From Streptomyces europaeiscabiei (GTDB lineage Bacteria; Actinomycetota; Actinomycetes; Streptomycetales; Streptomycetaceae), in NCBI RefSeq assembly GCF_001550375.1, contig NZ_LRTR01000829.1:1-64000 (forward strand): a stretch of 64,000 nucleotides of DNA. The letters run 5' to 3'. The notes under the pieces were generated by a model, which saw only the letters and a program-made list of their open reading frames with translations, ran no database searches and was not told where the DNA came from. The position numbers and the translations under genes were made by a program. Of this stretch, positions 10,557 to 28,726 are shown one piece after another (position 1 is the stretch's first letter; the number at the start of each line of letters is the position of its first letter).

Positions 10557-10650
10557 GTCATCCGGTGGCACGAGGTGAGCCCGCGCGGCGGCCCTACGGC
10601 GGGCAGACCGCTTCTCGCCGGGCGTGATGACCGCCGGTGCGCTTCGGTGT

Positions 10651-11949
10651 CTATGGATGGCTGTGGCACACGGACCAGACCTCTTCGAGGAATGCCGGGT
10701 AGTCCTCGCCGTAGGTGACCACGCCCGCGTACACCGCGTCCAGGGCGGCCTGGAGCGGGTCGGCGTGGGCGGCATCGGCCAGTGCGGGCAGGGCCATGTG
10801 CGGCTGCGACATCCGCAGGGACGGGTCGGGGGCCCCGATGACGACGGCCATGGTGTACGGGGCCGGGCTGTCGTCGGGCTGCGGTGCGGGCGGGCTCGGC
10901 GGTTTCGCCATGGCAGCCGCGGGGCCCACCACTGGCGGTGATTCCTGTGAGGGTTTTAGCAGAGGCTCCTGGCCCCCTGGGGGAACGGGCGGGTGGTAGG
11001 GCGGCCGTTCGGGCGGGATGGCCCGGCCGACGGTCCTGTTCGGGACACGCGGGTCCGAATCCAGTACCCGCCACAGGCGGTCCGGGTCGTCGAAGGGCGG
11101 CGGCAGCGGACGGCCGGCGGCCAGGGCCGTGAGGGCGTCGGAGATCCAGTCCAGGCCGGTCAGACCGGCCCTCTCGCAGGCCCGGCGGGCCGCGAGCAGG
11201 GCCACCGAGCGCTGGGTGGTGGGGCCGGCGGCGTCGATGGCGTGCAGGAGTGCGGGGTCGAAATCACGCAGGCCTCGGACGTTGCCGCCGACGGCGCGCA
11301 GAGCCTGGCTGGGCAGCTGCCCACCCCATTCCCACCGCTCGTGGGCGAGCAGGCGTTCTCGTTCTGCTTGCTGCTGGGTGAGGCGGGCTTGGTGTTCGGC
11401 TGCGGCGCGTTCGGCGGGTGTGGGAGGGGGCGGCTGCTGTCGGGCGTAGTCATGCCAGTAGGCGGCGTTCTGCGAGGTCTGCTTGAGTACCTGGTCGGGC
11501 CGCGGCGACGCGGGCCAGAACTGCAGCAGGTATCTGTCGAGTTCGGGTTCGTCGTCCGAGCGGGTGTCTTGCTCGCGTGCCGCGTCCATGCCTGTGGCGC
11601 AGTAGCGCACCCGGTAGTCGGTTTCTTCCAGGTCCAGCTCCCAGGTGTCCTCGCCTGCCCATTCCATGAGCACGCTGGTGGCGGACAGTGGGCGGAAGGA
11701 CACCTCCACGACGTCCTCCCATGCCGGGTCCAACGGCGGGGCCTGGTCGTGGACTTCGACGGTGAAGGGGACGCTGCCGGTGTGCAGCCCGGTCGTCAGC
11801 CACAGCGCCCCGGGAATCGCCGCCCCGCACAGTCCACTGCTCTGCCCGGCGAACGCCTCCGCGAGACCGGGACCGAAACCGTCCGGGTCACTCTCGACAT
11901 AGATCTGGCCGTAGTGAACATGTACCTCGCCATCGACGGGCCTGCGCAC
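10651..11949 (-). CDS. Unknown protein, 432 aa, left copy
   Basis: Mirror of 25054-26352. GTG start, with a charged AER/Q-rich stretch at about residues 175-205 and a proline-rich linker at about residues 310-365. No family is recognised. Confidence 0.65.
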   Translation of the reverse strand: MRRPVDGEVHVHYGQIYVESDPDGFGPGLAEAFAGQSSGLCGAAIPGALWLTTGLHTGSVPFTVEVHDQAPPLDPAWEDVVEVSFRPLSATSVLMEWAGEDTWELDLEETDYRVRYCATGMDAAREQDTRSDDEPELDRYLLQFWPASPRPDQVLKQTSQNAAYWHDYARQQPPPPTPAERAAAEHQARLTQQQAERERLLAHERWEWGGQLPSQALRAVGGNVRGLRDFDPALLHAIDAAGPTTQRSVALLAARRACERAGLTGLDWISDALTALAAGRPLPPPFDDPDRLWRVLDSDPRVPNRTVGRAIPPERPPYHPPVPPGGQEPLLKPSQESPPVVGPAAAMAKPPSPPAPQPDDSPAPYTMAVVIGAPDPSLRMSQPHMALPALADAAHADPLQAALDAVYAGVVTYGEDYPAFLEEVWSVCHSHP

Positions 11950-12357
11950 TTCACACCCTCCCCGATACGAGTGTGCGCCGGATGCGGCAGTCCCTCATAG
12001 GTGGCACGGAGATGGCGCCTTGTGACGGGCGGCGTCGGCCGAGGCCGGTGAGCGGCGAGGCTGCCTGGACCATGGTGGGCGGGCCTTCTTCCTGAGATGG
12101 GGCAGGGGTGTGCGGCGGCCGACGGCGGGACGGCAGCCACGCTACCGGCTCGGTCCCGGGCCGGCTGGGAGAAGTACAGTTACTTCCCAGGCCACAGGCT
12201 GTACGCCGTCACTTTTCGACACGGTTGCGCCCGGGCCCCCTGGATCTGGTCGTGCGTGCGACGGCCGACCGTCGGCCGTCCGGCAGGGGAGGATGCCCGG
12301 GAGGCGCTGCGGTCGCTCGTCTTCGGCCGTTGCGGTAAGTGCCGCCGGGCACCGCGA
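11950..12357. other. Intergenic region with two inverted repeats, left copy
   Basis: Mirror of 24646-25053. It contains a perfect 21-base inverted repeat at 12260-12280 (GACGGCCGAC, one base, GTCGGCCGTC) and an imperfect 26-base one at 12165-12190. No gene is supported. Confidence 0.5.
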
Positions 12358-15300
12358 TCACCCTCCTTGCCGGGACGGCGACCTTTTCCAGGCCTGGGTG
12401 AACAGCTCGTGCAGCGGGAGCGGGGAGAGCAGGCGGCAGAACGGGCCGTATATGTCTTTGCCGTTGGAGTTGGGGGCGGCGTACGGGGTGAGTTTGGCCG
12501 TCTCCAGGGGGAGGTGTGGGGTCTTGAGGTCGGTCCAGGGGCCCGGGATGAAGGCGGTACGGCCCGCGCGGGGGCGTTTGCCGGTCTCGGTGAGGCCGCT
12601 GGTGGCGAGGGCGGACTGCGCGGCTTTGTGGCGGGCCGGGGACCAGGCGTTCCAGCGGCGGATGTTGCGGTCCGTGGGGTGGGCGAGGGTAAGGAGCTGG
12701 AGGTGGAGGGCGGCGGCGTCCTCGTCGAGGGAGAGGGCGGTGGCGACCTCGCCGACCAGGGCCGGGACGCTGAGGAGGGGATTAGCTTCGTAGGAGCCGG
12801 GCGGCACCGGGGTGGTGGCGGCGCGCTGGACCATGCGGGCCAGGCCGCCGTCGGGGGTGTAGAGCTGGGTGACGTCGGGGGTGGAGGCTCGGAGGAAGAC
12901 GTTGCCGTTCGGGACGGTGACGACGAGGCTGCCGTTGTCGTACGCCGACGGGAGCGTGTGACCGTCCGGCTGGTAGGGCCTGCTGCGCAGGTGGAGCCGG
13001 CCTTCGTACGGCTTGAAGGACGGGGCCGTCGCCACGGATGCAGCCTGGTCCGGGCGGGGGGCCAGGGGGATCAGGTACGTCGGGGAGTCCAGCAGGGTGC
13101 GCAGGTCTTGGTACAGACCGGTGGCCCAGGTGACGGACGGGTCGCCCACGGGGCGTTCGGTGAGCGCCCAGGCCAGGGCCGTCGCCGGGACCACGTGCGG
13201 CAGGTCGTCGGGGTGTATCCAGGAGCCGGTCGTGCCGTCGGACTCGTCGCGGTGCAGGGAGAAGTGCCCTGAGACGCTGCCCTCGGCCAGTGTGAACCCC
13301 TTGTCCTGGGCGGGGATCGCCTCGCCCCTCGCGAGGCGGTGGGCCCAATCACCGGTGATGCCGAGGTCGGTCTCCAGGCCGTCGGCCAGGTGCTCGTCGA
13401 CGTACGGGGTCCGCCCGACGCGCCCGGTCCAGGCGTCGGCCATGCGCTCGGCGGCGGCGACCATACCGTCCTCCGTCCAGAGGCCGGGCAGTTCGGCCGG
13501 GTCGTCGGGCAGGCCCGCCGCGAGGACGGCCAGTCTGCCGGAGGACCCGAGCCGGTATTCGCCGTATGCCCAGGCCAGGCTCTGGCTCGCGTTGTACGGC
13601 GCCGACCGCAGCAGTTTGTCGTACTCCTTCCCGGCGCCGTAGGGCAGGCCACCCAGCGTCAGGGCGGAGATGGCCCGCCGTACGCCTGTGCGGCGGGAGA
13701 ACGCCTCCAGCGCGGCGGGCGAGAGGGGCAAGGGGCCCCGCGCCGCGAGGAGTTCGAGCAGTCGGGCGAGACGGGTACGGTCGTCACGGGTGAGCGTGAC
13801 GGTCGTGCACCCGGTGGCCTCCGCGGGTGCCGGGTCCGTGGCCCGCTGGACGAAGCGCTCCCCGGTGTCACCCTTGACACCCGGGTCGTCCGGTGGTCCG
13901 GATGCGATCACCCGGCCCTCCGCCCGGTGCGCCGCGAGCGCGGACGCCGGTGCCTGCCCCGTGCGCCAACTGCTGCCGCCCTCTGCGAAGGGCTGTTCGC
14001 GCCAGGTCTCCAGCAGGGCCAGCAGACAGGCCCGTTCGGAATCGGCGGTCGTGGACATGAGCGCTCGCCAGGCCACCGCGTCGATCGAGCCGAGCAGCAC
14101 GGTCCAGTCGACGGGCCGGGCCGCAGGCGCGAGACGGCGGGTCTCGTCGTCGATCTCGCCGCGCAGGTGGCGGCCGTCGGCGGCCAGAGCGGTGAGCATG
14201 GCGGGCTGCGGCTGGGGCCTGGGAGCCTTGTAGTGCACGGGTTCGTCCCGCAGGCCGCGCAGTGCGGTGGTCAGCTCCGTGTCCGGTACGGGGTTCTTCA
14301 GCGTGACGGCGGGTGCGGACCGCATGACGCCGACCCGCCGGGAGAGCTCCTCGCGGCGGCGCCGCACGTCGGCGGCCAGGCGGACCGCGCGCAGCACGCC
14401 GTCACGGAGGTCGGGGTCCGTCAACTCCGGCATTACCTCCAGCAGTACGTCGGTGAGGCTGGCCGGGGAGTCGAGGAGACGGCGTACGGTCTCGTCGTCG
14501 ACCGCACGCAGCGCGGCCGAGGCCGCCGGGTCCCGGGGGACGAGGAAGTGCCAGTACGCGGGCGGGGGGAACGGCATGGGTCCGGCGGCGGCCGGCGGCT
14601 TGTGCCACGGGTGCTTGGGGTCCGGGAAACCGCGGACCTCCCACAGCAGCGAACCGTCTTCGACCGCGGCGCATCGGACGTTGATCTGCTCCGCCAGCAC
14701 GCCGTCCTCGCCGCCCTCGGGCAGCCGCAGGATGCCCCATGGGTCCTGGCCCTGCCGTGAGACCCGGTAGGTCGCCTCGCGCCCGTCGATTCCCTCCAGG
14801 ACGAACCGGTCGGGTGCGTTGTTCCGGTACTTCGTACGGAACAGCACCCGGAAACCGACCAGGGAACCGGCCTGTCCCAGCGGGGACTCGGGGGCGCCCG
14901 GCGGCATCGGGGCCAGGGAGAGGGTCTCCTTGAAGACCGCAGTGCCCGGGGGCAGGGTGCCCGTGCCGGGGAAGTCCGGCAGGGTGGTGTCCTCGGTACG
15001 GGCGCCGGTGGTCGGGTCGACGCGGGCCCATCCGTCCCCGTACACCTGCGCGCTCCACACCCGCTTGCCGTCCGACATCTGTAGTTCGTGGTTGTCGATG
15101 CCCTCGCGGCCGCCGGGGCGCAGCACCCGCTCGCCGTCGTGCCGGCCGTCGCCGTCGGCGGTCTCGAACTGGAAGCCGAGGGCACCGTCGATGGAGCCGC
15201 CGTACGGCACCATGCCGCTGGCGTTCTCCGGCTCGAAGACCTCGTCGGGGGCGTCCGCCCAGAAGGCGCGGTCACTGCAGTAGGGGTTCGTGTCCGTCGT

Positions 15301-16929
15301 CCAGGCGACCAGGAACTTCCCGCCCACGTAGTGCACGGTGTGCAGGGTCGCGTCGTCCGGGACGCGGTAGGTGCAGGAGGCGCGGCGGCCTGCGTGGTCG
15401 ACGGCGATGGCCCGGTCGCGGGAGTACAGCGTCAGCACGGGCCAGGTGCAGGTCACGGCCGTGATCTCGGCGAGGGGCAGTTCGGTGAGGGCGTCCTCCA
15501 GCGCGGGCCAGCCCAGTTCCTCCGGCAGCCCGGCCCGCAGGGCGCGGGTCAGCGGGCCGGTCAGGTCGAGGGAGGCGAGGGCCTCCTCGATGCCGTCCAG
15601 CGCGGTGGCGGTGGGGCGGTCCAGGAGGGTGGTCAGTTCGTCGATCGCCTCGTGGGCCGCACCGAGCCCGCCGCCGCGCAGGGCGTCGAGCAGGCTGTTG
15701 ATCCGGGTCAGGACCTCGGCGGCGATGCCCTCGTTGCCCGGCAGCCGGGTGATCGCCGTACCGCCTCCGCCTCCGCCCCGTTCACGGCTGTGCAGGCCTT
15801 CATGGACCGTGCCCTCCAAGCGGCGGCCGAAGACCGGATGCGCGGCCACCGCCTTCAGATCGCGGCGCGAGCGGTCGCCCCAGAACTGCAGCAGGACCGT
15901 CTCGCCCGGGTCGTGCACCTCGATGCCCTCGGCCAGGCAGGCGTCCAGCAAATCCGCGTCGATATCGGTGAGGTGCCGCCACTTGGTCTCGTGCAGCCGC
16001 ACTGGCTCGCCCGCCGCGCGCAGGCGCGGGGCGAACAGCGCCAGCAGCTCGAACAGCTCGGGCGGCATGGGCTGACGGGAGACACCGCCGTACGGAACCT
16101 GGCGGTACGCGTACTCTCGGGCGAACCGGCTCAGCCAGGCGCTCAGCCCGCCGTCCGGGGTGATGCGCCCCGCCGCCACCGACTCGGCCGCTCCGGAGCG
16201 CAGCAGCAGACGCACCCAGGGGGCGGAGTCCGCCCGCGTCGGCGGAAACAGGTCCAGCAGCACCGCCTGCACGGCGTCATCCTGCGGATGCTTGGCCATC
16301 ACGGCCGCCGCCGCGTCCAGCAGGGCGTTCGGCACTGCCTTGCCGTGTGCCCCGCGCAGCGCCACGCCCAGCAGCCGGGCCTCCTCGTCCGTGCCCAGCC
16401 CGGCGGCCCGGGCGGAGGAACGGATCAGCTTGGCCAGGTCGGCGGGGAGGTCACCGGGAGAGGCCGCCCAGGCCTCCAGCAGCCGTATGGTCTCCTGGTG
16501 CGCCCGCTCCGGCGGCAACGTTGCCGCCAGTCGGCCCTGATGGGTCGTCAACTCCTTGGCGGGCAGCGCACCGGCCCGCGCGAACATCAGCACGTTCTCC
16601 CGGAGCCGGTCCGTGTCCACGGGCAGCGCGTGGTCCCGCTCGGCCTTCCGGGCGAGGGCGTAGGCGCGGCTCGCCTGCTTGGGGAACGAAAGGCTCATGC
16701 GGTGGGCGACGGAGTCCCAGAACGGCGGCAGGTGCGCCGGGGGCAACCGCCGTGCCCGCCAGGTCATGTCGTCCAGAAACCGGCCCGGCTTCTCGTGTGT
16801 CCGGAACAGGCCCGACTCGGCTGCCTCCATCAACTCGCGCGCGGCCGGCTCGGCGCCCGCGTCGTGGGTGAGGACCCAGTCGACGTACGGCACCAGGGAG
16901 TTGGGTTTCGGAGGCAGCGTGACGGTCAT
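12358..16929 (-). CDS. Giant unknown protein, about 1523 aa, left copy
   Basis: Mirror of 20074-24645. The frame is open throughout on the minus strand. See the right copy for composition and start choice. Confidence 0.8.
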   Translation of the reverse strand: MTVTLPPKPNSLVPYVDWVLTHDAGAEPAARELMEAAESGLFRTHEKPGRFLDDMTWRARRLPPAHLPPFWDSVAHRMSLSFPKQASRAYALARKAERDHALPVDTDRLRENVLMFARAGALPAKELTTHQGRLAATLPPERAHQETIRLLEAWAASPGDLPADLAKLIRSSARAAGLGTDEEARLLGVALRGAHGKAVPNALLDAAAAVMAKHPQDDAVQAVLLDLFPPTRADSAPWVRLLLRSGAAESVAAGRITPDGGLSAWLSRFAREYAYRQVPYGGVSRQPMPPELFELLALFAPRLRAAGEPVRLHETKWRHLTDIDADLLDACLAEGIEVHDPGETVLLQFWGDRSRRDLKAVAAHPVFGRRLEGTVHEGLHSRERGGGGGGTAITRLPGNEGIAAEVLTRINSLLDALRGGGLGAAHEAIDELTTLLDRPTATALDGIEEALASLDLTGPLTRALRAGLPEELGWPALEDALTELPLAEITAVTCTWPVLTLYSRDRAIAVDHAGRRASCTYRVPDDATLHTVHYVGGKFLVAWTTDTNPYCSDRAFWADAPDEVFEPENASGMVPYGGSIDGALGFQFETADGDGRHDGERVLRPGGREGIDNHELQMSDGKRVWSAQVYGDGWARVDPTTGARTEDTTLPDFPGTGTLPPGTAVFKETLSLAPMPPGAPESPLGQAGSLVGFRVLFRTKYRNNAPDRFVLEGIDGREATYRVSRQGQDPWGILRLPEGGEDGVLAEQINVRCAAVEDGSLLWEVRGFPDPKHPWHKPPAAAGPMPFPPPAYWHFLVPRDPAASAALRAVDDETVRRLLDSPASLTDVLLEVMPELTDPDLRDGVLRAVRLAADVRRRREELSRRVGVMRSAPAVTLKNPVPDTELTTALRGLRDEPVHYKAPRPQPQPAMLTALAADGRHLRGEIDDETRRLAPAARPVDWTVLLGSIDAVAWRALMSTTADSERACLLALLETWREQPFAEGGSSWRTGQAPASALAAHRAEGRVIASGPPDDPGVKGDTGERFVQRATDPAPAEATGCTTVTLTRDDRTRLARLLELLAARGPLPLSPAALEAFSRRTGVRRAISALTLGGLPYGAGKEYDKLLRSAPYNASQSLAWAYGEYRLGSSGRLAVLAAGLPDDPAELPGLWTEDGMVAAAERMADAWTGRVGRTPYVDEHLADGLETDLGITGDWAHRLARGEAIPAQDKGFTLAEGSVSGHFSLHRDESDGTTGSWIHPDDLPHVVPATALAWALTERPVGDPSVTWATGLYQDLRTLLDSPTYLIPLAPRPDQAASVATAPSFKPYEGRLHLRSRPYQPDGHTLPSAYDNGSLVVTVPNGNVFLRASTPDVTQLYTPDGGLARMVQRAATTPVPPGSYEANPLLSVPALVGEVATALSLDEDAAALHLQLLTLAHPTDRNIRRWNAWSPARHKAAQSALATSGLTETGKRPRAGRTAFIPGPWTDLKTPHLPLETAKLTPYAAPNSNGKDIYGPFCRLLSPLPLHELFTQAWKRSPSRQGG

Positions 16930-17575
16930 GCGGAAGATCGTGACACGCGCCACTGACAGTCAGGCATGATCCGCCCCCAGAGGCCTGGCCGCCCTCGATA
17001 TCCCGCTGTACAAGAGGATTCCCACACCACTTCGCTCAGCCATAGATCAACATGCAGGTAGCCGGCGGCGCGCTCCACGGCGCGTGAGAGGCAGCGCTGC
17101 GCCGAGTTCCGTGCGCGGTTCCGTACAAGGCCCCCCGTCCCGCCCGTTGTGACCGTGGTGCGAGCAAGATGGGCGTCCTCGCCTGTCGGGACGAATCCAA
17201 GGAGGCGCCCCCTCGGGCTTTCCGGCGTAGGGGTGCGCCTCTTGCTGTGTGCTGCGGGGCCTCCGCCGGAGCGCGGGCAGAGCAGTGCATCGGTCGATGA
17301 CCTGCTGTACGTGGGGCCGGGTGTAGGCCCCGGACAATCAGCCGGTGAGGACGGCGTACGGGTCCGGGGCCTGGGGCGGGTGTCCCGTCACCCCATGGGC
17401 TAGGCGATGGGGCGAGTGGTCCGCCCTCTATGCGGGTGGCTCGTCCAGGTGAATCCGCACCGCCGCGATGAACGCGTCGAGTGTGGGTTTGATGGCGGCG
17501 GAGGCATCTACGATGCGGCGGGCTTGAGGCGGGGGGTCGCATGGGCCGCCACTGCTGCCGCAGCGTGCCGAGCTG
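16930..17575. other. Gene-poor 646 bases, left copy
   Basis: Mirror of 19428-20073. No start, domain or complete frame is supported. It is the leader of the giant gene on the minus strand and precedes the YrhB-like gene on the plus strand. Confidence 0.35.
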
Positions 17576-17850
17576 GTGTCGGGTGAGCAGGCCCGCGTCT
17601 CTTGTTCGCCGTCCGGCTCGTGGAGGCGCAGCTGGAGCGTGAGTCGCAGGGGCAGCTGCGAGTGACACATGTCGAGGAGCACGAACTGGTGTGGGTTGTC
17701 GCCTACCAGTCGGCGGAGTACCTGCGGACGGGAGACCCCTCTCGGATGCTGGTGGGTGGTGGCCCGTTTCTCGTCGATCGCGTTGCACGACCCTGCTGCA
17801 CCTCGCCGCCCTCCTCCCAACGGCACTCAGTGCAGCGCACCCCGGCGTAG
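17576..17850 (+). pseudogene. YrhB-like (Imm35-type) protein with frameshift, left copy
   Basis: Mirror of 19153-19427. The frame changes near 17600. The second frame carries the VWVVAYQSAEYLRT core and a GPFLVDRV tail typical of YrhB-domain proteins. Confidence 0.5.
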
Positions 17851-18388
17851 TGGTCTCCGCGGTCGTAGTCGGTCGCACCCCACTGTTTCGAACTTGGCTG
17901 GCGGGGCGCCGCAGTTGGGGCAGATCACGTAGACGTCGGCTCCGTGAAAGAACACGGCCTCGATGGTCGCCTCGTCCAGGAGCTGTTGGACGCCTTGAAG
18001 GAATCCGGTGGTATCGACCCAAGATCTTGTTGACGGCGGTCTGGTCGTCGTCATCGGTCACGGAGACCCAGTACAGGGGGCGGAGGAGCGCCGGGAGTGG
18101 CGTGTCGTCCAGGCAGACCGGGATGATCCTGAGTCCGTCTTCCAGTCGCCGGATGATCGCAGTCTCCAACTCGGACTTGACCCACTCCGACGTGCTGGCG
18201 CGCTCGGACCAGCAGACGAGCACGGTGTCGACCGTGTCCAAGGCGACCCCGACTTTGCCAGGAATGGAGTCGCCGGGGCTCAGTTCCCACTCATCGAGCC
18301 AGATGTCCACGCCGCCCAACCGCAGCTTCGTGGCGAAGGAGCGAACGGCAGGCTTGTCCTTATGGGTGTGGGAAACGAACGCGCGCAC
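17703..18388 (-). pseudogene. TIR-domain/zinc-ribbon protein, two frameshifts, left copy
   Basis: Mirror of 18615-19300. It is the gene nearest the palindrome axis, pointing away from it. It overlaps the convergent YrhB-like gene. Confidence 0.65.
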
Positions 18389-18481
18389 TGCTGCGCCTTG
18401 TCATCCCAAAGACCTAGGACCAGATTATCGTCAAGATGACATTTTCGCATCTGCATTCAGGCACTCCGACTCCGGCCTCGG

Positions 18482-18521
18482 GGAACAGCGGAGCAGCCGA
18501 TATCGGCTGCTCCGCTGTTCC
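18482..18521. other. Axis of the palindrome, zero spacer
   Basis: The sequence is self-complementary around CCGATATCGG, with the axis between 18501 and 18502 and no unpaired spacer base. A direct snap-back of a single strand needs a loop of a few bases. A zero spacer therefore fits end-to-end joining of two identical ends, replication of a closed hairpin end, or a read or assembly fold-back. The 110 bases beside the axis do not contain the packed short palindromes of archetypal Streptomyces telomeres. Confidence 0.9.
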
Positions 18522-18614
18522 CCGAGGCCGGAGTCGGAGTGCCTGAATGCAGATGCGAAAATGTCATCTTGACGATAATCTGGTCCTAGGTCTTTGGGAT
18601 GACAAGGCGCAGCA

Positions 18615-19300
18615 GTGCGCGCGTTCGTTTCCCACACCCATAAGGACAAGCCTGCCGTTCGCTCCTTCGCCACGAAGCTGCGGTTGGGCGGCGTGGACAT
18701 CTGGCTCGATGAGTGGGAACTGAGCCCCGGCGACTCCATTCCTGGCAAAGTCGGGGTCGCCTTGGACACGGTCGACACCGTGCTCGTCTGCTGGTCCGAG
18801 CGCGCCAGCACGTCGGAGTGGGTCAAGTCCGAGTTGGAGACTGCGATCATCCGGCGACTGGAAGACGGACTCAGGATCATCCCGGTCTGCCTGGACGACA
18901 CGCCACTCCCGGCGCTCCTCCGCCCCCTGTACTGGGTCTCCGTGACCGATGACGACGACCAGACCGCCGTCAACAAGATCTTGGGTCGATACCACCGGAT
19001 TCCTTCAAGGCGTCCAACAGCTCCTGGACGAGGCGACCATCGAGGCCGTGTTCTTTCACGGAGCCGACGTCTACGTGATCTGCCCCAACTGCGGCGCCCC
19101 GCCAGCCAAGTTCGAAACAGTGGGGTGCGACCGACTACGACCGCGGAGACCACTACGCCGGGGTGCGCTGCACTGAGTGCCGTTGGGAGGAGGGCGGCGA
19201 GGTGCAGCAGGGTCGTGCAACGCGATCGACGAGAAACGGGCCACCACCCACCAGCATCCGAGAGGGGTCTCCCGTCCGCAGGTACTCCGCCGACTGGTAG
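18615..19300 (+). pseudogene. TIR-domain/zinc-ribbon protein, two frameshifts, right copy
   Basis: The first 124 codons form a TIR domain: FVSHTHKDK at residues 4-12, WLDEWEL at 30-36, and VCWSERAS..WVKSE at 58-73. Glu73 sits where catalytic Glu lies in NAD-cleaving TIR domains (WVxxE). Near 18985 the frame shifts to one reading TTGFLQGVQQLLDEATIEAV and a CPNC pair, and near 19125 it shifts again to DYDRGDHYAGVRCTEC, which supplies the second Cys pair of a zinc ribbon. Three consecutive protein-like frames imply one ancestral protein of about 220 codons. The GTG start at 18615 is chosen because TIR domains begin this way; the ribosome site is weak. A role in NAD-based defence is inferred from TIR families. 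The breaks may be decay or uncorrected read errors. Confidence 0.65.
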
Positions 19301-19427
19301 GCGACAACCCACACCAGTTCGTGCTCCTCGACATGTGTCACTCGCAGCTGCCCCTGCGACTCACGCTCCAGCTGCGCCTCCACGAGCCGGACGGCGAACA
19401 AGAGACGCGGGCCTGCTCACCCGACAC
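19153..19427 (-). pseudogene. YrhB-like (Imm35-type) protein with frameshift, right copy
   Basis: A GTG at 19425-19427 opens VSGEQARV, then a shift of frame near 19403 leads into VRLVEAQLERE, VWVVAYQSAEYLRTGDPS and GPFLVDRV. This order and spacing match small YrhB-domain proteins, which are often annotated as immunity protein 35. The last 15 codons run antisense to the zinc-ribbon tail of the TIR gene, so the two genes are convergent and overlap. Family members occur beside polymorphic toxins; no toxin partner is visible here. The call rests on the core motif only. Confidence 0.5.
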
Positions 19428-20073
19428 CAGCTCGGCACGCTGCGGCAGCAGTGGCGGCCCATGCGACCCCCCGCCTCAAGCCCGCCGCATCGTAGATGCC
19501 TCCGCCGCCATCAAACCCACACTCGACGCGTTCATCGCGGCGGTGCGGATTCACCTGGACGAGCCACCCGCATAGAGGGCGGACCACTCGCCCCATCGCC
19601 TAGCCCATGGGGTGACGGGACACCCGCCCCAGGCCCCGGACCCGTACGCCGTCCTCACCGGCTGATTGTCCGGGGCCTACACCCGGCCCCACGTACAGCA
19701 GGTCATCGACCGATGCACTGCTCTGCCCGCGCTCCGGCGGAGGCCCCGCAGCACACAGCAAGAGGCGCACCCCTACGCCGGAAAGCCCGAGGGGGCGCCT
19801 CCTTGGATTCGTCCCGACAGGCGAGGACGCCCATCTTGCTCGCACCACGGTCACAACGGGCGGGACGGGGGGCCTTGTACGGAACCGCGCACGGAACTCG
19901 GCGCAGCGCTGCCTCTCACGCGCCGTGGAGCGCGCCGCCGGCTACCTGCATGTTGATCTATGGCTGAGCGAAGTGGTGTGGGAATCCTCTTGTACAGCGG
20001 GATATCGAGGGCGGCCAGGCCTCTGGGGGCGGATCATGCCTGACTGTCAGTGGCGCGTGTCACGATCTTCCGC
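19428..20073. other. Gene-poor 646 bases, right copy
   Basis: A short plus-strand frame ends with DPYAVLTG and a TGA near 19665, which resembles a protein C-terminus, but no upstream body is open. Another frame from 19666 has no domain. The region carries the leader of the giant gene. No clear -10/-35 pair or ribosome site was found just before 20074. Confidence 0.35.
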
Positions 20074-23000
20074 ATGACCGTCACGCTGCCTCCGAAACCC
20101 AACTCCCTGGTGCCGTACGTCGACTGGGTCCTCACCCACGACGCGGGCGCCGAGCCGGCCGCGCGCGAGTTGATGGAGGCAGCCGAGTCGGGCCTGTTCC
20201 GGACACACGAGAAGCCGGGCCGGTTTCTGGACGACATGACCTGGCGGGCACGGCGGTTGCCCCCGGCGCACCTGCCGCCGTTCTGGGACTCCGTCGCCCA
20301 CCGCATGAGCCTTTCGTTCCCCAAGCAGGCGAGCCGCGCCTACGCCCTCGCCCGGAAGGCCGAGCGGGACCACGCGCTGCCCGTGGACACGGACCGGCTC
20401 CGGGAGAACGTGCTGATGTTCGCGCGGGCCGGTGCGCTGCCCGCCAAGGAGTTGACGACCCATCAGGGCCGACTGGCGGCAACGTTGCCGCCGGAGCGGG
20501 CGCACCAGGAGACCATACGGCTGCTGGAGGCCTGGGCGGCCTCTCCCGGTGACCTCCCCGCCGACCTGGCCAAGCTGATCCGTTCCTCCGCCCGGGCCGC
20601 CGGGCTGGGCACGGACGAGGAGGCCCGGCTGCTGGGCGTGGCGCTGCGCGGGGCACACGGCAAGGCAGTGCCGAACGCCCTGCTGGACGCGGCGGCGGCC
20701 GTGATGGCCAAGCATCCGCAGGATGACGCCGTGCAGGCGGTGCTGCTGGACCTGTTTCCGCCGACGCGGGCGGACTCCGCCCCCTGGGTGCGTCTGCTGC
20801 TGCGCTCCGGAGCGGCCGAGTCGGTGGCGGCGGGGCGCATCACCCCGGACGGCGGGCTGAGCGCCTGGCTGAGCCGGTTCGCCCGAGAGTACGCGTACCG
20901 CCAGGTTCCGTACGGCGGTGTCTCCCGTCAGCCCATGCCGCCCGAGCTGTTCGAGCTGCTGGCGCTGTTCGCCCCGCGCCTGCGCGCGGCGGGCGAGCCA
21001 GTGCGGCTGCACGAGACCAAGTGGCGGCACCTCACCGATATCGACGCGGATTTGCTGGACGCCTGCCTGGCCGAGGGCATCGAGGTGCACGACCCGGGCG
21101 AGACGGTCCTGCTGCAGTTCTGGGGCGACCGCTCGCGCCGCGATCTGAAGGCGGTGGCCGCGCATCCGGTCTTCGGCCGCCGCTTGGAGGGCACGGTCCA
21201 TGAAGGCCTGCACAGCCGTGAACGGGGCGGAGGCGGAGGCGGTACGGCGATCACCCGGCTGCCGGGCAACGAGGGCATCGCCGCCGAGGTCCTGACCCGG
21301 ATCAACAGCCTGCTCGACGCCCTGCGCGGCGGCGGGCTCGGTGCGGCCCACGAGGCGATCGACGAACTGACCACCCTCCTGGACCGCCCCACCGCCACCG
21401 CGCTGGACGGCATCGAGGAGGCCCTCGCCTCCCTCGACCTGACCGGCCCGCTGACCCGCGCCCTGCGGGCCGGGCTGCCGGAGGAACTGGGCTGGCCCGC
21501 GCTGGAGGACGCCCTCACCGAACTGCCCCTCGCCGAGATCACGGCCGTGACCTGCACCTGGCCCGTGCTGACGCTGTACTCCCGCGACCGGGCCATCGCC
21601 GTCGACCACGCAGGCCGCCGCGCCTCCTGCACCTACCGCGTCCCGGACGACGCGACCCTGCACACCGTGCACTACGTGGGCGGGAAGTTCCTGGTCGCCT
21701 GGACGACGGACACGAACCCCTACTGCAGTGACCGCGCCTTCTGGGCGGACGCCCCCGACGAGGTCTTCGAGCCGGAGAACGCCAGCGGCATGGTGCCGTA
21801 CGGCGGCTCCATCGACGGTGCCCTCGGCTTCCAGTTCGAGACCGCCGACGGCGACGGCCGGCACGACGGCGAGCGGGTGCTGCGCCCCGGCGGCCGCGAG
21901 GGCATCGACAACCACGAACTACAGATGTCGGACGGCAAGCGGGTGTGGAGCGCGCAGGTGTACGGGGACGGATGGGCCCGCGTCGACCCGACCACCGGCG
22001 CCCGTACCGAGGACACCACCCTGCCGGACTTCCCCGGCACGGGCACCCTGCCCCCGGGCACTGCGGTCTTCAAGGAGACCCTCTCCCTGGCCCCGATGCC
22101 GCCGGGCGCCCCCGAGTCCCCGCTGGGACAGGCCGGTTCCCTGGTCGGTTTCCGGGTGCTGTTCCGTACGAAGTACCGGAACAACGCACCCGACCGGTTC
22201 GTCCTGGAGGGAATCGACGGGCGCGAGGCGACCTACCGGGTCTCACGGCAGGGCCAGGACCCATGGGGCATCCTGCGGCTGCCCGAGGGCGGCGAGGACG
22301 GCGTGCTGGCGGAGCAGATCAACGTCCGATGCGCCGCGGTCGAAGACGGTTCGCTGCTGTGGGAGGTCCGCGGTTTCCCGGACCCCAAGCACCCGTGGCA
22401 CAAGCCGCCGGCCGCCGCCGGACCCATGCCGTTCCCCCCGCCCGCGTACTGGCACTTCCTCGTCCCCCGGGACCCGGCGGCCTCGGCCGCGCTGCGTGCG
22501 GTCGACGACGAGACCGTACGCCGTCTCCTCGACTCCCCGGCCAGCCTCACCGACGTACTGCTGGAGGTAATGCCGGAGTTGACGGACCCCGACCTCCGTG
22601 ACGGCGTGCTGCGCGCGGTCCGCCTGGCCGCCGACGTGCGGCGCCGCCGCGAGGAGCTCTCCCGGCGGGTCGGCGTCATGCGGTCCGCACCCGCCGTCAC
22701 GCTGAAGAACCCCGTACCGGACACGGAGCTGACCACCGCACTGCGCGGCCTGCGGGACGAACCCGTGCACTACAAGGCTCCCAGGCCCCAGCCGCAGCCC
22801 GCCATGCTCACCGCTCTGGCCGCCGACGGCCGCCACCTGCGCGGCGAGATCGACGACGAGACCCGCCGTCTCGCGCCTGCGGCCCGGCCCGTCGACTGGA
22901 CCGTGCTGCTCGGCTCGATCGACGCGGTGGCCTGGCGAGCGCTCATGTCCACGACCGCCGATTCCGAACGGGCCTGTCTGCTGGCCCTGCTGGAGACCTG

Positions 23001-24645
23001 GCGCGAACAGCCCTTCGCAGAGGGCGGCAGCAGTTGGCGCACGGGGCAGGCACCGGCGTCCGCGCTCGCGGCGCACCGGGCGGAGGGCCGGGTGATCGCA
23101 TCCGGACCACCGGACGACCCGGGTGTCAAGGGTGACACCGGGGAGCGCTTCGTCCAGCGGGCCACGGACCCGGCACCCGCGGAGGCCACCGGGTGCACGA
23201 CCGTCACGCTCACCCGTGACGACCGTACCCGTCTCGCCCGACTGCTCGAACTCCTCGCGGCGCGGGGCCCCTTGCCCCTCTCGCCCGCCGCGCTGGAGGC
23301 GTTCTCCCGCCGCACAGGCGTACGGCGGGCCATCTCCGCCCTGACGCTGGGTGGCCTGCCCTACGGCGCCGGGAAGGAGTACGACAAACTGCTGCGGTCG
23401 GCGCCGTACAACGCGAGCCAGAGCCTGGCCTGGGCATACGGCGAATACCGGCTCGGGTCCTCCGGCAGACTGGCCGTCCTCGCGGCGGGCCTGCCCGACG
23501 ACCCGGCCGAACTGCCCGGCCTCTGGACGGAGGACGGTATGGTCGCCGCCGCCGAGCGCATGGCCGACGCCTGGACCGGGCGCGTCGGGCGGACCCCGTA
23601 CGTCGACGAGCACCTGGCCGACGGCCTGGAGACCGACCTCGGCATCACCGGTGATTGGGCCCACCGCCTCGCGAGGGGCGAGGCGATCCCCGCCCAGGAC
23701 AAGGGGTTCACACTGGCCGAGGGCAGCGTCTCAGGGCACTTCTCCCTGCACCGCGACGAGTCCGACGGCACGACCGGCTCCTGGATACACCCCGACGACC
23801 TGCCGCACGTGGTCCCGGCGACGGCCCTGGCCTGGGCGCTCACCGAACGCCCCGTGGGCGACCCGTCCGTCACCTGGGCCACCGGTCTGTACCAAGACCT
23901 GCGCACCCTGCTGGACTCCCCGACGTACCTGATCCCCCTGGCCCCCCGCCCGGACCAGGCTGCATCCGTGGCGACGGCCCCGTCCTTCAAGCCGTACGAA
24001 GGCCGGCTCCACCTGCGCAGCAGGCCCTACCAGCCGGACGGTCACACGCTCCCGTCGGCGTACGACAACGGCAGCCTCGTCGTCACCGTCCCGAACGGCA
24101 ACGTCTTCCTCCGAGCCTCCACCCCCGACGTCACCCAGCTCTACACCCCCGACGGCGGCCTGGCCCGCATGGTCCAGCGCGCCGCCACCACCCCGGTGCC
24201 GCCCGGCTCCTACGAAGCTAATCCCCTCCTCAGCGTCCCGGCCCTGGTCGGCGAGGTCGCCACCGCCCTCTCCCTCGACGAGGACGCCGCCGCCCTCCAC
24301 CTCCAGCTCCTTACCCTCGCCCACCCCACGGACCGCAACATCCGCCGCTGGAACGCCTGGTCCCCGGCCCGCCACAAAGCCGCGCAGTCCGCCCTCGCCA
24401 CCAGCGGCCTCACCGAGACCGGCAAACGCCCCCGCGCGGGCCGTACCGCCTTCATCCCGGGCCCCTGGACCGACCTCAAGACCCCACACCTCCCCCTGGA
24501 GACGGCCAAACTCACCCCGTACGCCGCCCCCAACTCCAACGGCAAAGACATATACGGCCCGTTCTGCCGCCTGCTCTCCCCGCTCCCGCTGCACGAGCTG
24601 TTCACCCAGGCCTGGAAAAGGTCGCCGTCCCGGCAAGGAGGGTGA
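20074..24645 (+). CDS. Giant unknown protein, about 1523 aa, right copy
   Basis: One open frame of more than 4.5 kb with a steady third-position GC bias marks a real gene. I chose the ATG at 20074, which gives a protein starting MTVTLPPKPNSLVPYVDWVL; a GTG at 20050 is an in-frame alternative, and neither has a clear ribosome site. Roughly the first 500 residues are Ala/Leu/Arg-rich and look all-helical, like a repeat scaffold. A Gly run (RERGGGGGG) lies near residue 385. The middle, about 520-820, is richer in aromatic, Gly and Asp residues and looks beta-rich. The final 600 residues return to helical character. There is no signal peptide, transmembrane segment, Walker motif or known catalytic motif, so a cytoplasmic scaffold or multi-domain sensor is possible. 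I do not recognise the family. Confidence 0.8.
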   Translation: MTVTLPPKPNSLVPYVDWVLTHDAGAEPAARELMEAAESGLFRTHEKPGRFLDDMTWRARRLPPAHLPPFWDSVAHRMSLSFPKQASRAYALARKAERDHALPVDTDRLRENVLMFARAGALPAKELTTHQGRLAATLPPERAHQETIRLLEAWAASPGDLPADLAKLIRSSARAAGLGTDEEARLLGVALRGAHGKAVPNALLDAAAAVMAKHPQDDAVQAVLLDLFPPTRADSAPWVRLLLRSGAAESVAAGRITPDGGLSAWLSRFAREYAYRQVPYGGVSRQPMPPELFELLALFAPRLRAAGEPVRLHETKWRHLTDIDADLLDACLAEGIEVHDPGETVLLQFWGDRSRRDLKAVAAHPVFGRRLEGTVHEGLHSRERGGGGGGTAITRLPGNEGIAAEVLTRINSLLDALRGGGLGAAHEAIDELTTLLDRPTATALDGIEEALASLDLTGPLTRALRAGLPEELGWPALEDALTELPLAEITAVTCTWPVLTLYSRDRAIAVDHAGRRASCTYRVPDDATLHTVHYVGGKFLVAWTTDTNPYCSDRAFWADAPDEVFEPENASGMVPYGGSIDGALGFQFETADGDGRHDGERVLRPGGREGIDNHELQMSDGKRVWSAQVYGDGWARVDPTTGARTEDTTLPDFPGTGTLPPGTAVFKETLSLAPMPPGAPESPLGQAGSLVGFRVLFRTKYRNNAPDRFVLEGIDGREATYRVSRQGQDPWGILRLPEGGEDGVLAEQINVRCAAVEDGSLLWEVRGFPDPKHPWHKPPAAAGPMPFPPPAYWHFLVPRDPAASAALRAVDDETVRRLLDSPASLTDVLLEVMPELTDPDLRDGVLRAVRLAADVRRRREELSRRVGVMRSAPAVTLKNPVPDTELTTALRGLRDEPVHYKAPRPQPQPAMLTALAADGRHLRGEIDDETRRLAPAARPVDWTVLLGSIDAVAWRALMSTTADSERACLLALLETWREQPFAEGGSSWRTGQAPASALAAHRAEGRVIASGPPDDPGVKGDTGERFVQRATDPAPAEATGCTTVTLTRDDRTRLARLLELLAARGPLPLSPAALEAFSRRTGVRRAISALTLGGLPYGAGKEYDKLLRSAPYNASQSLAWAYGEYRLGSSGRLAVLAAGLPDDPAELPGLWTEDGMVAAAERMADAWTGRVGRTPYVDEHLADGLETDLGITGDWAHRLARGEAIPAQDKGFTLAEGSVSGHFSLHRDESDGTTGSWIHPDDLPHVVPATALAWALTERPVGDPSVTWATGLYQDLRTLLDSPTYLIPLAPRPDQAASVATAPSFKPYEGRLHLRSRPYQPDGHTLPSAYDNGSLVVTVPNGNVFLRASTPDVTQLYTPDGGLARMVQRAATTPVPPGSYEANPLLSVPALVGEVATALSLDEDAAALHLQLLTLAHPTDRNIRRWNAWSPARHKAAQSALATSGLTETGKRPRAGRTAFIPGPWTDLKTPHLPLETAKLTPYAAPNSNGKDIYGPFCRLLSPLPLHELFTQAWKRSPSRQGG

Positions 24646-25053
24646 TCGCGGTGCCCGGCGGCACTTACCGCAACGGCCGAAGACGAGCGACCGCAGCGCC
24701 TCCCGGGCATCCTCCCCTGCCGGACGGCCGACGGTCGGCCGTCGCACGCACGACCAGATCCAGGGGGCCCGGGCGCAACCGTGTCGAAAAGTGACGGCGT
24801 ACAGCCTGTGGCCTGGGAAGTAACTGTACTTCTCCCAGCCGGCCCGGGACCGAGCCGGTAGCGTGGCTGCCGTCCCGCCGTCGGCCGCCGCACACCCCTG
24901 CCCCATCTCAGGAAGAAGGCCCGCCCACCATGGTCCAGGCAGCCTCGCCGCTCACCGGCCTCGGCCGACGCCGCCCGTCACAAGGCGCCATCTCCGTGCC
25001 ACCTATGAGGGACTGCCGCATCCGGCGCACACTCGTATCGGGGAGGGTGTGAA
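24646..25053. other. Intergenic region with two inverted repeats, right copy
   Basis: At 24723-24743 there is a perfect inverted repeat with 10-base arms and a one-base centre, about 80 bases after the giant gene stops. It could be a terminator without a T-run or an operator. At 24813-24838 a second, imperfect repeat (CTGGGAAGTA against TACTTCTCCCAG) lies about 215 bases before the next gene. Open frames here have no start signal or domain. Confidence 0.5.
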
Positions 25054-26352
25054 GTGCGCAGGCCCGTCGATGGCGAGGTACATGTTCACTACGGCCAGAT
25101 CTATGTCGAGAGTGACCCGGACGGTTTCGGTCCCGGTCTCGCGGAGGCGTTCGCCGGGCAGAGCAGTGGACTGTGCGGGGCGGCGATTCCCGGGGCGCTG
25201 TGGCTGACGACCGGGCTGCACACCGGCAGCGTCCCCTTCACCGTCGAAGTCCACGACCAGGCCCCGCCGTTGGACCCGGCATGGGAGGACGTCGTGGAGG
25301 TGTCCTTCCGCCCACTGTCCGCCACCAGCGTGCTCATGGAATGGGCAGGCGAGGACACCTGGGAGCTGGACCTGGAAGAAACCGACTACCGGGTGCGCTA
25401 CTGCGCCACAGGCATGGACGCGGCACGCGAGCAAGACACCCGCTCGGACGACGAACCCGAACTCGACAGATACCTGCTGCAGTTCTGGCCCGCGTCGCCG
25501 CGGCCCGACCAGGTACTCAAGCAGACCTCGCAGAACGCCGCCTACTGGCATGACTACGCCCGACAGCAGCCGCCCCCTCCCACACCCGCCGAACGCGCCG
25601 CAGCCGAACACCAAGCCCGCCTCACCCAGCAGCAAGCAGAACGAGAACGCCTGCTCGCCCACGAGCGGTGGGAATGGGGTGGGCAGCTGCCCAGCCAGGC
25701 TCTGCGCGCCGTCGGCGGCAACGTCCGAGGCCTGCGTGATTTCGACCCCGCACTCCTGCACGCCATCGACGCCGCCGGCCCCACCACCCAGCGCTCGGTG
25801 GCCCTGCTCGCGGCCCGCCGGGCCTGCGAGAGGGCCGGTCTGACCGGCCTGGACTGGATCTCCGACGCCCTCACGGCCCTGGCCGCCGGCCGTCCGCTGC
25901 CGCCGCCCTTCGACGACCCGGACCGCCTGTGGCGGGTACTGGATTCGGACCCGCGTGTCCCGAACAGGACCGTCGGCCGGGCCATCCCGCCCGAACGGCC
26001 GCCCTACCACCCGCCCGTTCCCCCAGGGGGCCAGGAGCCTCTGCTAAAACCCTCACAGGAATCACCGCCAGTGGTGGGCCCCGCGGCTGCCATGGCGAAA
26101 CCGCCGAGCCCGCCCGCACCGCAGCCCGACGACAGCCCGGCCCCGTACACCATGGCCGTCGTCATCGGGGCCCCCGACCCGTCCCTGCGGATGTCGCAGC
26201 CGCACATGGCCCTGCCCGCACTGGCCGATGCCGCCCACGCCGACCCGCTCCAGGCCGCCCTGGACGCGGTGTACGCGGGCGTGGTCACCTACGGCGAGGA
26301 CTACCCGGCATTCCTCGAAGAGGTCTGGTCCGTGTGCCACAGCCATCCATAG
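25054..26352 (+). CDS. Unknown protein, 432 aa, right copy
   Basis: A GTG at 25054 follows a GGGGAGGGTG purine-rich site, which fixes the start. Residues 1-150 are Asp/Glu-rich and beta-like, with VHVHYGQIYVESD at the N-terminus. A charged helical stretch (AERAAAEHQARLTQQQAERE) at about 178-197 may form a coiled coil. A helical part follows, then a Pro-rich linker at about 310-365, and the C-terminus ends in VWSVCHSHP. There is no signal peptide and no known motif. It lies between the giant gene and the toxin-antitoxin pair, all on the same strand, but gaps of 408 and 125 bases argue against one operon. Function is unknown. Confidence 0.65.
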   Translation: MRRPVDGEVHVHYGQIYVESDPDGFGPGLAEAFAGQSSGLCGAAIPGALWLTTGLHTGSVPFTVEVHDQAPPLDPAWEDVVEVSFRPLSATSVLMEWAGEDTWELDLEETDYRVRYCATGMDAAREQDTRSDDEPELDRYLLQFWPASPRPDQVLKQTSQNAAYWHDYARQQPPPPTPAERAAAEHQARLTQQQAERERLLAHERWEWGGQLPSQALRAVGGNVRGLRDFDPALLHAIDAAGPTTQRSVALLAARRACERAGLTGLDWISDALTALAAGRPLPPPFDDPDRLWRVLDSDPRVPNRTVGRAIPPERPPYHPPVPPGGQEPLLKPSQESPPVVGPAAAMAKPPSPPAPQPDDSPAPYTMAVVIGAPDPSLRMSQPHMALPALADAAHADPLQAALDAVYAGVVTYGEDYPAFLEEVWSVCHSHP

Positions 26353-26446
26353 ACACCGAAGCGCACCGGCGGTCATCACGCCCGGCGAGAAGCGGTCTGC
26401 CCGCCGTAGGGCCGCCGCGCGGGCTCACCTCGTGCCACCGGATGAC

Positions 26447-26465
26447 GCCACCGTGAAACGGTGGC
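26447..26465. promoter_or_regulatory. Operator-like inverted repeat of the toxin-antitoxin pair, right copy
   Basis: GCCACCGT, GAA, ACGGTGGC: perfect 8-bp arms ending 12 bases before the antitoxin ATG, directly followed by TATTCT, a fair -10 box. A related half-site, GTGCCACCGG, lies 14 bases upstream. The position fits autoregulation by a ribbon-helix-helix antitoxin; binding is inferred. Confidence 0.6.
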
Positions 26466-26477
26466 TATTCTGCATTC

Positions 26478-26675
26478 ATGTCTGTCACCACAATGACGCT
26501 GCGCATCCCTGATGAACTGGCCCCCTCGATCAAGGCGGCGGCTTCGGGCGCCAACATGAGCGTGAACGCGTGGATAGTCCGCGCCGCCCGCCGCGCCGCG
26601 ACCCTCGATGCCGCGCACCAGCTCGCCGGCCTCGGCCTCGGAGACGATCTCGCGGGCGAGGGAGACACTCTGTGA
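26478..26675 (+). CDS. Ribbon-helix-helix antitoxin, right copy
   Basis: This 65-codon protein has MTLRIPDELAPSIKAAAS followed by MSVNAWIVRAARRAAT: one beta strand and two helices, the MetJ/Arc DNA-binding fold. Its short C-terminal tail, rich in Leu, Gly and Asp, would be the toxin-neutralising part. It is the first gene of a two-gene operon and its stop overlaps the MazF start by four bases. It probably represses its own promoter through the inverted repeat 12 bases upstream. Confidence 0.75.
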   Translation: MSVTTMTLRIPDELAPSIKAAASGANMSVNAWIVRAARRAATLDAAHQLAGLGLGDDLAGEGDTL

Positions 26676-26968
26676 AGCGTGGCGAGGTCTGGGTCCTCCC
26701 CGACGAGCGCAACGTTCTGATCGTTTCCCTGACCGGCCTGGAAGAGGCTTACGGCGCGGTGGTCGTGATCGTGCTGCACCCCTCCGGGAGATTCCCCGAC
26801 ACGGCTATGTCCGTCGTGATCGGCGACCCGGTCCCGTGCACCGCCGTCGCGGTCAACATGCAGCAGCTGCGGGCCACCCGATTCGACGGCGCCAAGCTTC
26901 TCGGCGAGGTCGCCCCCGAGGCGATGGCACGTGTCGACCAGGCGCTGCGCGCCGTCCTCGACCTCTAG
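26672..26968 (+). CDS. MazF/PemK-like toxin, right copy
   Basis: The 98-codon protein starts at GTG 26672 with KRGEVWVLPDERNVLIVS, matching the RGEVW opening of MazF/PemK endoribonucleases, in which the Arg helps catalysis. A central VVIVLHPSG strand and a late VNMQQLRATRF segment resemble the family, where a Thr/Ser-rich loop and an Arg bind RNA. The length is typical of the family (about 100-115). It is translationally coupled to the antitoxin through a GTGA overlap. Cleavage of mRNA is inferred from the family. The pair is present in both arms, doubling its dose if the palindrome is real. Confidence 0.8.
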   Translation: MKRGEVWVLPDERNVLIVSLTGLEEAYGAVVVIVLHPSGRFPDTAMSVVIGDPVPCTAVAVNMQQLRATRFDGAKLLGEVAPEAMARVDQALRAVLDL

Positions 26969-27024
26969 CCTGCGTATTTCACGTGCCGCAGTGTCCGGAT
27001 CTTGCGCTACTGAAACCCTTGAAG

Positions 27025-28726
27025 TTTCCCCAAGGCCGGGTAGTTAGCGTTTCTGCAGGTCACGCAAGGTGGCGGTCCTCGTTGGTGCGGCTGCCGCGTA
27101 GCGGCCGGTACGAACCCTCTTGATCAGCCCTCTTTCGGTCCAGCGGGCGAGTTGTTGATAGGTGGCGACCATGGTGACGTCGCCGAGGAGTTCGGCGATC
27201 TCTCTGGCCCGCCACTGCCGCTCGGGCTCTGCCTGCAGGACCGCGAGGACGCGGGTCGTGCGGTTGCTGATCTGGCCGGGGCCGACGTAGTCGGGGACCG
27301 TGGTGTCCGGCAGCGCGGGGCGAGGGGACGGGGGTGGCAGGAGCGCGATCGTCACGGAGGTCACGGTCCGGCTCTGGTCGGGGCGGCCGTCCATCTTCCT
27401 TTCCGCGTAGCGCGAGGTCGGCGATTTCACCTTGCGGGTACTGACGCGGGGCCGACTCGGCGGGGCCAGCTCCGTCAGGATCCGCCGTCCGATGGCCCCG
27501 ATGCCCTGCTCGAAGACTTCTTCCGCGCGTACCAGCAGGTCGCGGGCGGTGTGGAGAGCGATCGTGAATCCGCATCGGTCGAGGTCGGTGCCCGGCCGCG
27601 ACTGAGCCGTCTCGGCGATGGCCCGACGCAGGAGCTGGTAGCAGATCAGCAGGGACCACATCTCCTGCTTGACGCCGCCTGGGTCGCATGAGCGCAGGAC
27701 GCGCCCGCGCAGAATGGTGTGGCGCAGGGCGTAGTAGGCGCTCTCGTGCTCCCAACGCTCGTGATAGAGGCGCACGAGACGGTCGGCGGGGTAGCGCCGG
27801 GCGTCCAGCAGGGTGGTCACCAGCCGGTAGGAGCCGTCGAAGGTACTGCCGTCGGCGCACGTCACGCTTACCTGAGCCTCGATGATGCGCACGGCGACAG
27901 TGCCGATGACCGAGAGGTACGAGGAGTCCGGGAGGGCTGTGAGGACCGGCGGGCGGCGGCGCTGTCGGATGCGGCCCACCACGTGGGCGCCGGTGGCGTG
28001 CACGGCGGCGAGGAAGTCGTTGCTGTCGAAGCCCCGGTCCCACAGCACCAGCATCTCGGGACCCAGCCAGCGTCATGAGCTCGACCTGCGGATAGCCGCC
28101 GTGCGGGCACCGCCCCAGCCAGCCCCGGTTGCGCTCACTGTCCGGGGTCTTGATCGAGCTGCAGCCGTCGAAGGAGACCGTGCGGTACGGGCCGAAGCGC
28201 ACGCCGGGCGTCCGTGGCTCAGACAGCGCTCCGGCCACCACCTCGAACAGGGCCTTCATCGGGGCGCAGCCCACCCGGCGGCGCAGATCACGCAGACCCT
28301 TCGCGCTGGGGGCCGGCCGGACACGCCCGATTCCGCAGGTCAGCTTGTCCCACACCAGCCGGTAGCCAACCTCAGGGAACAGGCACATCGCCACCACGAA
28401 GTACACCCGACCCGTGAGGGCAAGTCCCGAAGACGCTACTGGACCGCGCGGGTCTCCTCCAGGACGGCATCCACCAACTCGAAGGGTAGGAAAGGAGTCA
28501 GGCCACCGAGCTGTCCGGCAGCGAACCTCCCGGCGGCCACAGTGACCGTACGGGTGATGGCCATCACAGGAGTTGGCGGGACATGATGAGACGGCAACGG
28601 AGCTCCTCGGATACAAGCTGTCTTGGTCGACTGCCTGTACCAACGAGCTCCGTTGCTCTACGTCGGGCACACCTTCAACTGACTTGCGTGACCTGCAGAA
28701 ACGCTAACTACCCGGCCTTGGGGAAA
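27025..28726 (-). mobile_element. IS4-family insertion sequence, right copy
   Basis: The 44-base terminal inverted repeats at 27025-27068 and 28683-28726 are identical, and the transposase reads on the minus strand between them. One end lies against an integrase fragment and the other 56 bases past the MazF stop. No duplicated target bases were found. The element cannot move by itself because its transposase is broken, but intact ends could be moved in trans. Confidence 0.85.
27044..28564 (-). pseudogene. IS4 transposase, inactivated, right copy
   Basis: Reading from 28564, the protein starts MAITRTVTVAAGRF, meets a TAG after EETRAVQ (near 28438), changes frame into VYFVVAMCLFPEVGYRL, continues through VSFDGCSSIKTPDSERN (the first catalytic Asp of the DDE triad) and then jumps, with a deletion and frame change near 28065, to LVLWDRGFDSNDF (second Asp). 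The YHERWEHESAYY segment, holding the Glu of the YREK-like region, is intact. The C-terminal 150 residues add a likely winged-helix portion. Family members are single-frame proteins of about 550 residues, so this copy is dead. Confidence 0.8.

Follow-up and report, generated by a model that had tools for sequence, protein, structure and literature searches.

The TIR-zinc-ribbon locus

The window (the whole stretch of DNA analyzed, 64,000 nucleotides) covers bases 1-64,000 of contig C812 (159,122 bp), which belongs to a draft 10.5-Mb assembly of 931 contigs. It carries a predicted gene for a TIR domain followed by a C-terminal zinc ribbon and, on the opposite strand, an open reading frame (ORF) of the YrhB/Imm35 type (Table 1). 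The coding sequence of the TIR-ribbon protein is spread over three frames, with the CPNC pair of the ribbon in one further frame and the CTEC pair in another that also encodes the terminal GGEV. Comparison with relatives places the end of this coding sequence at 19204, which shortens the unit that the initial annotation had drawn to 19427.

Table 1. Features of the window and of the loci compared with it.
Feature	Sequence	Position	Strand	Remark
Perfect palindrome, 37,002 bases at contig start	Window	1-37002		Two halves, 1-18501 and 18502-37002, exact reverse complements, 0 mismatches
1531-codon ORF	Window	20050-24645 and 12358-16953		No Pfam, NCBIfam or PADLOC match
Mirror YrhB fragment (putative)	Window	17602-17850	+	
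Mirror TIR-zinc-ribbon pseudogene (predicted)	Window	17799-18388	-	
Central perfect inverted repeat, 58 bases	Window	18473-18530		Contig C724 ends within
5' flank common to window and plasmid homologue L099	Window	18531-18614	+	
Inverted-repeat-like element	Window	18562-18576		First base differs from homologues
TIR-zinc-ribbon pseudogene (predicted)	Window	18615-19204	+	GTG start; coding spread over three frames
Frame with TIR	Window	18615-18983	+	
Frame with linker and first CxxC	Window	18988-19122	+	
Frame with second CxxC	Window	19124-19204	+	
TIR domain	Window	18615-18986	+	TIR_2, PF13676, E 3.4e-25; Glu73 in WVKSE, codon 18831-18833
C-terminal zinc ribbon, CPNC ... CTEC	Window	19081-19204	+	Two frames here, one in homologues
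YrhB/Imm35 ORF, fragment (putative)	Window	19153-19401	-	PF15567, E 1.5e-13
Copy of upstream element	L091	7943-7957		
Second-branch gene	L085	9395-10012		
Second-branch gene	L086	9519-10130		
Second-branch gene	L087	667-1188		
Second-branch gene	L088	9837-10412		
Second-branch gene	L089	9401-9952		
468-residue protein	L094	8706-10112		No Pfam match at E ≤ 0.01
468-residue protein	L091	3192-4598		No Pfam match at E ≤ 0.01
Wadjet JetABC	L091			Defense-like neighbor
TmtA	L042			Defense-like neighbor
PDC-S18	L084			Defense-like neighbor
PD-Lambda-5_A and weak DzbB	L093			Defense-like neighbors
ApeA-type HEPN gene	L099			Defense-like neighbor, matching PDC-S58

The TIR and ribbon parts belong to one conserved protein

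The TIR and ribbon frames belong together, because relatives exist in which a single frame encodes both. The closest named homologues come from Streptomyces and Kitasatospora: locus L095 of Kitasatospora sp. MBT63 is 95.8% identical to the window in DNA over 669 bases, and locus L099, on a linear plasmid of Streptomyces sp. NBC_00289 (protein WP_331720304.1), is 96.5% identical over 690 bases. Further single-frame genes are found in four Streptomyces (L091-L094) and in genome G389 (L084), with 53-57% protein identity to L099, and on plasmid pAL1 of Arthrobacter sp. Rue61a (L100), with 34% protein identity. By these alignments, TIR and ribbon are one real fusion protein, with a predicted intact form of ~197 residues. 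The TIR domain with an NADase-type Glu73 that had been proposed upon joining of the frames was borne out (PF13676, with W and E aligned to AbTIR), and so was the two-pair zinc ribbon in the same protein, both pairs lying in one frame in the homologues.

All 8 aligned intact proteins, including one with only 34% identity, have W69, Glu73 and the four cysteines of the ribbon. The cysteine pairs C157/C160 and C186/C189, whose spacing suggests a zinc ribbon, are invariant in 11 of 11 aligned proteins and likewise present in L100. TIR_2 matched the intact proteins of L084 (E 1.3e-27), L099 (E 7.7e-25), L095 and L100. Zinc-finger Pfam matches of intact proteins stayed below the cut-off, none of five ribbon segments matched a Pfam family above it, and the other Pfam, NCBIfam and PADLOC matches were confined to the TIR part. 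AlphaFold, run on five sequences, returned a mean pLDDT of 41.1, a model too poor for use.

Intact TIR-zinc-ribbon genes are under purifying selection. Among five of them (L084 and L091-L094), dN/dS ranged from 0.09 to 0.26 in 10 of 10 pairs, and dN was lower than dS in all 10 both for the first 130 codons (TIR) and for the remainder (ribbon).

The window copy is a predicted pseudogene

Alignment to L095 and L099 shows that the frame of the window copy is broken twice, around 18984-18988 and around 19117-19124, that the stop codon present at the relatives' site is missing and that the Shine-Dalgarno-like site at 18604-18609 is altered. A codon comparison of the three genes (196 codons, gapped codons dropped) gave dN/dS values, on small numbers, of 0.84 for the window versus L099 and 0.31 for the window versus L095, against 0.19 for L095 versus L099; where L095 and L099 agree, the window-specific codon changes comprised 6 non-synonymous and 2 synonymous ones. 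Because of the two frame breaks, the missing stop codon, the altered ribosome-binding site and the relaxed dN/dS, the window copy is, as read from these changes, a pseudogene that decayed recently. The frame breaks might instead be sequencing or assembly errors in a gene that is whole in the organism, for which the 931 contigs of the draft and its probable fold-back (see below) would speak. We consider this very unlikely, since several separate differences fall in one short gene (both frame breaks, the stop codon, the Shine-Dalgarno-like site and the upstream element), dN/dS to L099 stands at 0.84 against 0.19 for the two relatives, and the adjacent 1531-codon ORF stays open. Parts of that ORF are similar at the DNA level in a few relatives.

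A probable assembly fold-back duplicates the locus

The TIR locus is present twice in the window because positions 1-18501 mirror positions 18502-37002, a duplication that the initial annotation had missed. Another contig of the assembly, C724 (6,835 bp), terminates in 44 bases identical to 18473-18516 and diverges from the window just outside them; because it ends in these bases, we read 18473-18530 as a hairpin shared in part by C724. An FG-GAP gene on C724 has its stop codon just before this hairpin. The palindrome is probably an assembly fold-back, the assembler having turned back at the hairpin, and the simplest reading is that C724 is the true neighbor of the TIR gene; the palindrome may also be real in the organism. 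More than half of the window is thus probable fold-back, with the genes in 1-18501 each counted twice.

The YrhB ORF looks like a leftover fragment

In tblastn comparisons with three relatives (L054-L056), the Imm35 homology of the YrhB ORF was restricted to about 19219-19398, that is, to about 58 of its 82 codons, and these relatives, 207-229 residues long, reach past the ORF at both ends. The remainder, its last 24 codons, is the antisense of the end and flank of the TIR gene: residues 59-82 align to the reverse strand of the TIR gene end in L095, and the alignment to L099 runs from residue 60. Since the Imm35 homology ends near 19219 and the DNA block common to the window, L095 and L099 ends at 19218, the TIR block appears to abut a truncated YrhB gene, with the overlap as a by-product of the junction. 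Searches by tblastn with four Imm35 proteins detected an Imm35 gene at none of the 17 homologue loci, 12 from the same branch and 5 from the second branch described below, nor in C724 and a stretch further along C812 (19 of 19 sequences, including the 17 loci); in the homologue loci they hit only the antisense strand of the TIR gene, at L099, L095 and L094.

The YrhB ORF looks like a leftover fragment and not like a partner. The initial annotation had described a convergent YrhB gene overlapping the TIR gene and had seen in it a partner or a restraint. An Imm35 ORF does lie on the opposite strand, but an overlap of the TIR gene with a YrhB gene was not upheld, and truncated homology, an antisense C terminus and the lack of linkage in 17 of 17 homologue loci argue against it as a partner of what is, in the window, a pseudogene; by the initial annotation's own refuting criterion, a lack of conserved linkage, the partner half of its proposal fails, and the fusion half stands. 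Restraint of a TIR-ribbon toxin by the neighboring YrhB (Imm35) protein, suggested by the adjacent and convergent genes of the window, is close to untenable for an ORF that is a fragment ending antisense to the TIR gene and has a counterpart at none of the 17 loci.

Distribution and mobility

A scan of 84,980 species with one genome each, using two peptide patterns, yielded at least eight loci, five of full length and three in which only the C-terminal half matched. Within the genus, 19 of 392 genomes had a match. The mobile branch, to which the window copy belongs, was represented by the window's own genome, by G389 with an intact gene and by G197 with a gene truncated at its N terminus, the latter two bearing the window's genus label; a second branch was found in G291, G040, G285, G339 and G183 and, as a decayed copy, in G236. 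The other matches were to the ribbon only (G014) or the TIR only (the remaining nine). The TIR part of the window matched 31 of 199 genomes, mostly through other TIR proteins, and 13 of 396 phylum genomes had matches at E ≤ 1e-8, those listed outside the window's own genome being confined to the TIR part. With a profile of the ribbon, the window's own genome was the sole match among 394 class genomes, a set in which the presence of known carriers is not shown. A plasmid search gave 32 records, two of them spanning at least 80% of the query. Phage sequences contained no match to the TIR-ribbon gene, and 12 pattern matches in viral contigs included no relative.

Seven intact loci (L084, L091-L095 and L099) carry CGTCANNNYGACGAT about 39-55 bases 5' of the start codon, and the motif was found in none of the other loci among the 111 compared (L065 is the same place as L084); no copy was seen 5' of L100. 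A pattern close to this upstream element has two further occurrences in the window's own genome. In many pairs of loci, the left edge of the shared DNA lies near the upstream element, and the right edges vary. No terminal repeats were seen by eye in the flanks inspected, and a mobile element with fixed ends was rejected.

Gene neighborhoods

An all-against-all comparison of 139 called ORFs, including the TIR genes, from 10 loci (with the window joined to C724) revealed no common partner gene. Neighbors matching PADLOC models at E ≤ 1e-5 were present in five of the eight homologue loci scanned, L100 not being among these eight (Table 1). These neighbors were picked by eye (nine defense-like proteins, eight with a PADLOC match), so the defense neighborhood is a lead and not a statistic. 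Ten neighbors of L092 and L095 compared with PADLOC gave one TnsB-like transposase and no defense match. A Mrr_cat gene is also present at L042, and its homologue at L094 has no PADLOC match.

At L084 (9742-12291), in genome G389, DUF6527 and DUF6791-ThiF genes precede the intact TIR-ribbon gene on its strand. The ThiF part weakly matches PADLOC E1-E2 models, and the three genes are possibly a ubiquitin-like operon with an E1-like DUF6791-ThiF protein; given this arrangement, the TIR-ribbon gene might belong to a larger system in some hosts. As a fixed partner, the DUF6791-ThiF/DUF6527 pair was rejected, having been seen solely at G389. Among the matches listed in the literature on ThiF, multiubiquitin and TIR, no paper on DUF6527 was found. 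A protein of 468 residues recurs in L091 (twice), L092 (in part) and L094 and was likewise rejected as a fixed partner, being confined to these three loci among the 20 sequences searched.

A second branch without the catalytic glutamate

Five proteins from the window's genus (L085-L089) keep the four cysteines and have no Glu at the catalytic column. Two of them, L085 (E 5.9e-10) and L087 (E 6.7e-07), pass the TIR_2 cut-off, and three, L086 (E 5.3e-06), L088 (E 5.6e-05) and L089 (E 0.031), fall below it. Ten neighbors chosen by eye at four second-branch loci had no match to PADLOC models.

Relation to known systems

Known TIR effectors are usually switched on by a partner or by a larger sensor domain, and a sensor joined to a TIR is the logic of SAVED-TIR, TIR-APAZ, retron RT-TIR and Cat1. 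Models or chains of these four matched our proteins in the TIR part only, and their second domain has a short ribbon in its place here. The closest likeness among solved structures is to AbTIR (PDB 7uwg/8g83), in which the W and E of WTNYE align with those of WVKSE; the catalytic residue aligned to Glu73 we take to be E208. The AbTIR match covers the TIR part only (profile 4-93), whereas the TIR-ribbon proteins have a conserved C-terminal ribbon and varied neighborhoods. Thoeris ThsB resembles them in its TIR domain, with scores above the ThsB_TIR cut-off and matches to PADLOC ThsB models, but these matches stop short of the ribbon, and the TIR-ribbon loci have no constant neighbor. The best PADLOC match of the window TIR part was the candidate PDC-S66 (E 1.2e-11), over profile positions 152-240 of 282 only and with the ribbon outside. 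In intact proteins, PADLOC matched several TIR systems over the TIR part. The NCBIfam matches were to the TIR end of a retron protein, far below its cut-off, in four of four proteins of the mobile branch and, in one case, to a Thoeris protein.

No named system with a TIR-zinc-ribbon architecture was found, in agreement with the initial annotation, which had not recognized the combination as a named defense system, and the fusion is apparently a real but unnamed TIR variant. With the phrases used, our literature search found no paper joining a TIR and a zinc ribbon; since most subscription papers and preprints lay outside it, this gap is weak evidence of novelty. Passages of PMC7159879 name TIR domains and zinc ribbons in different proteins.

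Proposed function

We favor the reading, at a probability of roughly 58%, that the protein in its intact form works alone as a TIR NADase defense effector, with the ribbon as a sensor or assembly part. We infer NAD cleavage, phage defense, action without a partner and the role of the ribbon alike. NADase activity is suggested by AbTIR as the best solved-structure match, in which a W and an E four residues apart align with W69 and E73, and defense by the PADLOC-model neighbors at five of eight homologue loci versus none among the 10 second-branch neighbors. The ribbon would sense an infection signal or drive assembly, the TIR domains would associate and then cleave NAD+, and the infected cell would cease to support the phage; the window site would be what is left, after recent decay, of a small, mobile defense module made of one gene.

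The TIR domain might instead, as ThsB does, make a second messenger for an effector whose gene lies elsewhere in the genome, with the ribbon as phage sensor; this alternative is less likely but deserves consideration. The ThsB_TIR cut-off of Pfam (21.2 bits) is passed in the window (24.6), L099 (25.3), L095 and L100, L084 being below it, and PADLOC ThsB models matched with E 3.2e-07 (window) and 2.3e-06 (L099). Against it, TIR_2 scores lie far above those of ThsB_TIR, AbTIR and further bacterial TIR proteins head the solved-structure matches, and the 10 loci show no constant neighbor in an ORF comparison that was not a search for ThsA by name. We think it unlikely that the ribbon is the active part, binding nucleic acid or protein, with the TIR as a scaffold whose catalysis is dispensable: the five second-branch proteins, which have the ribbon and lack the Glu, would fit such a role, but W69 and E73 are kept in 8 of 8 mobile-branch proteins that are under purifying selection. 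Slightly more doubtful still is the extended proposal that TIR-zinc-ribbon proteins constitute a one-gene abortive-infection system not described before, with the ribbon itself detecting the phage and the second branch, as a resident, antagonizing the mobile active branch or serving as its decoy.

For the window itself, the practical message is that its copy appears dead and that the YrhB "partner" looks like a fragment. If the favored reading, a stand-alone NADase effector, is true, a TIR protein of <200 residues that adds only a linker and a short ribbon to its TIR domain would rank with the smallest TIR immune proteins able to work by themselves, and would offer an uncomplicated model in which to look for the minimal trigger.
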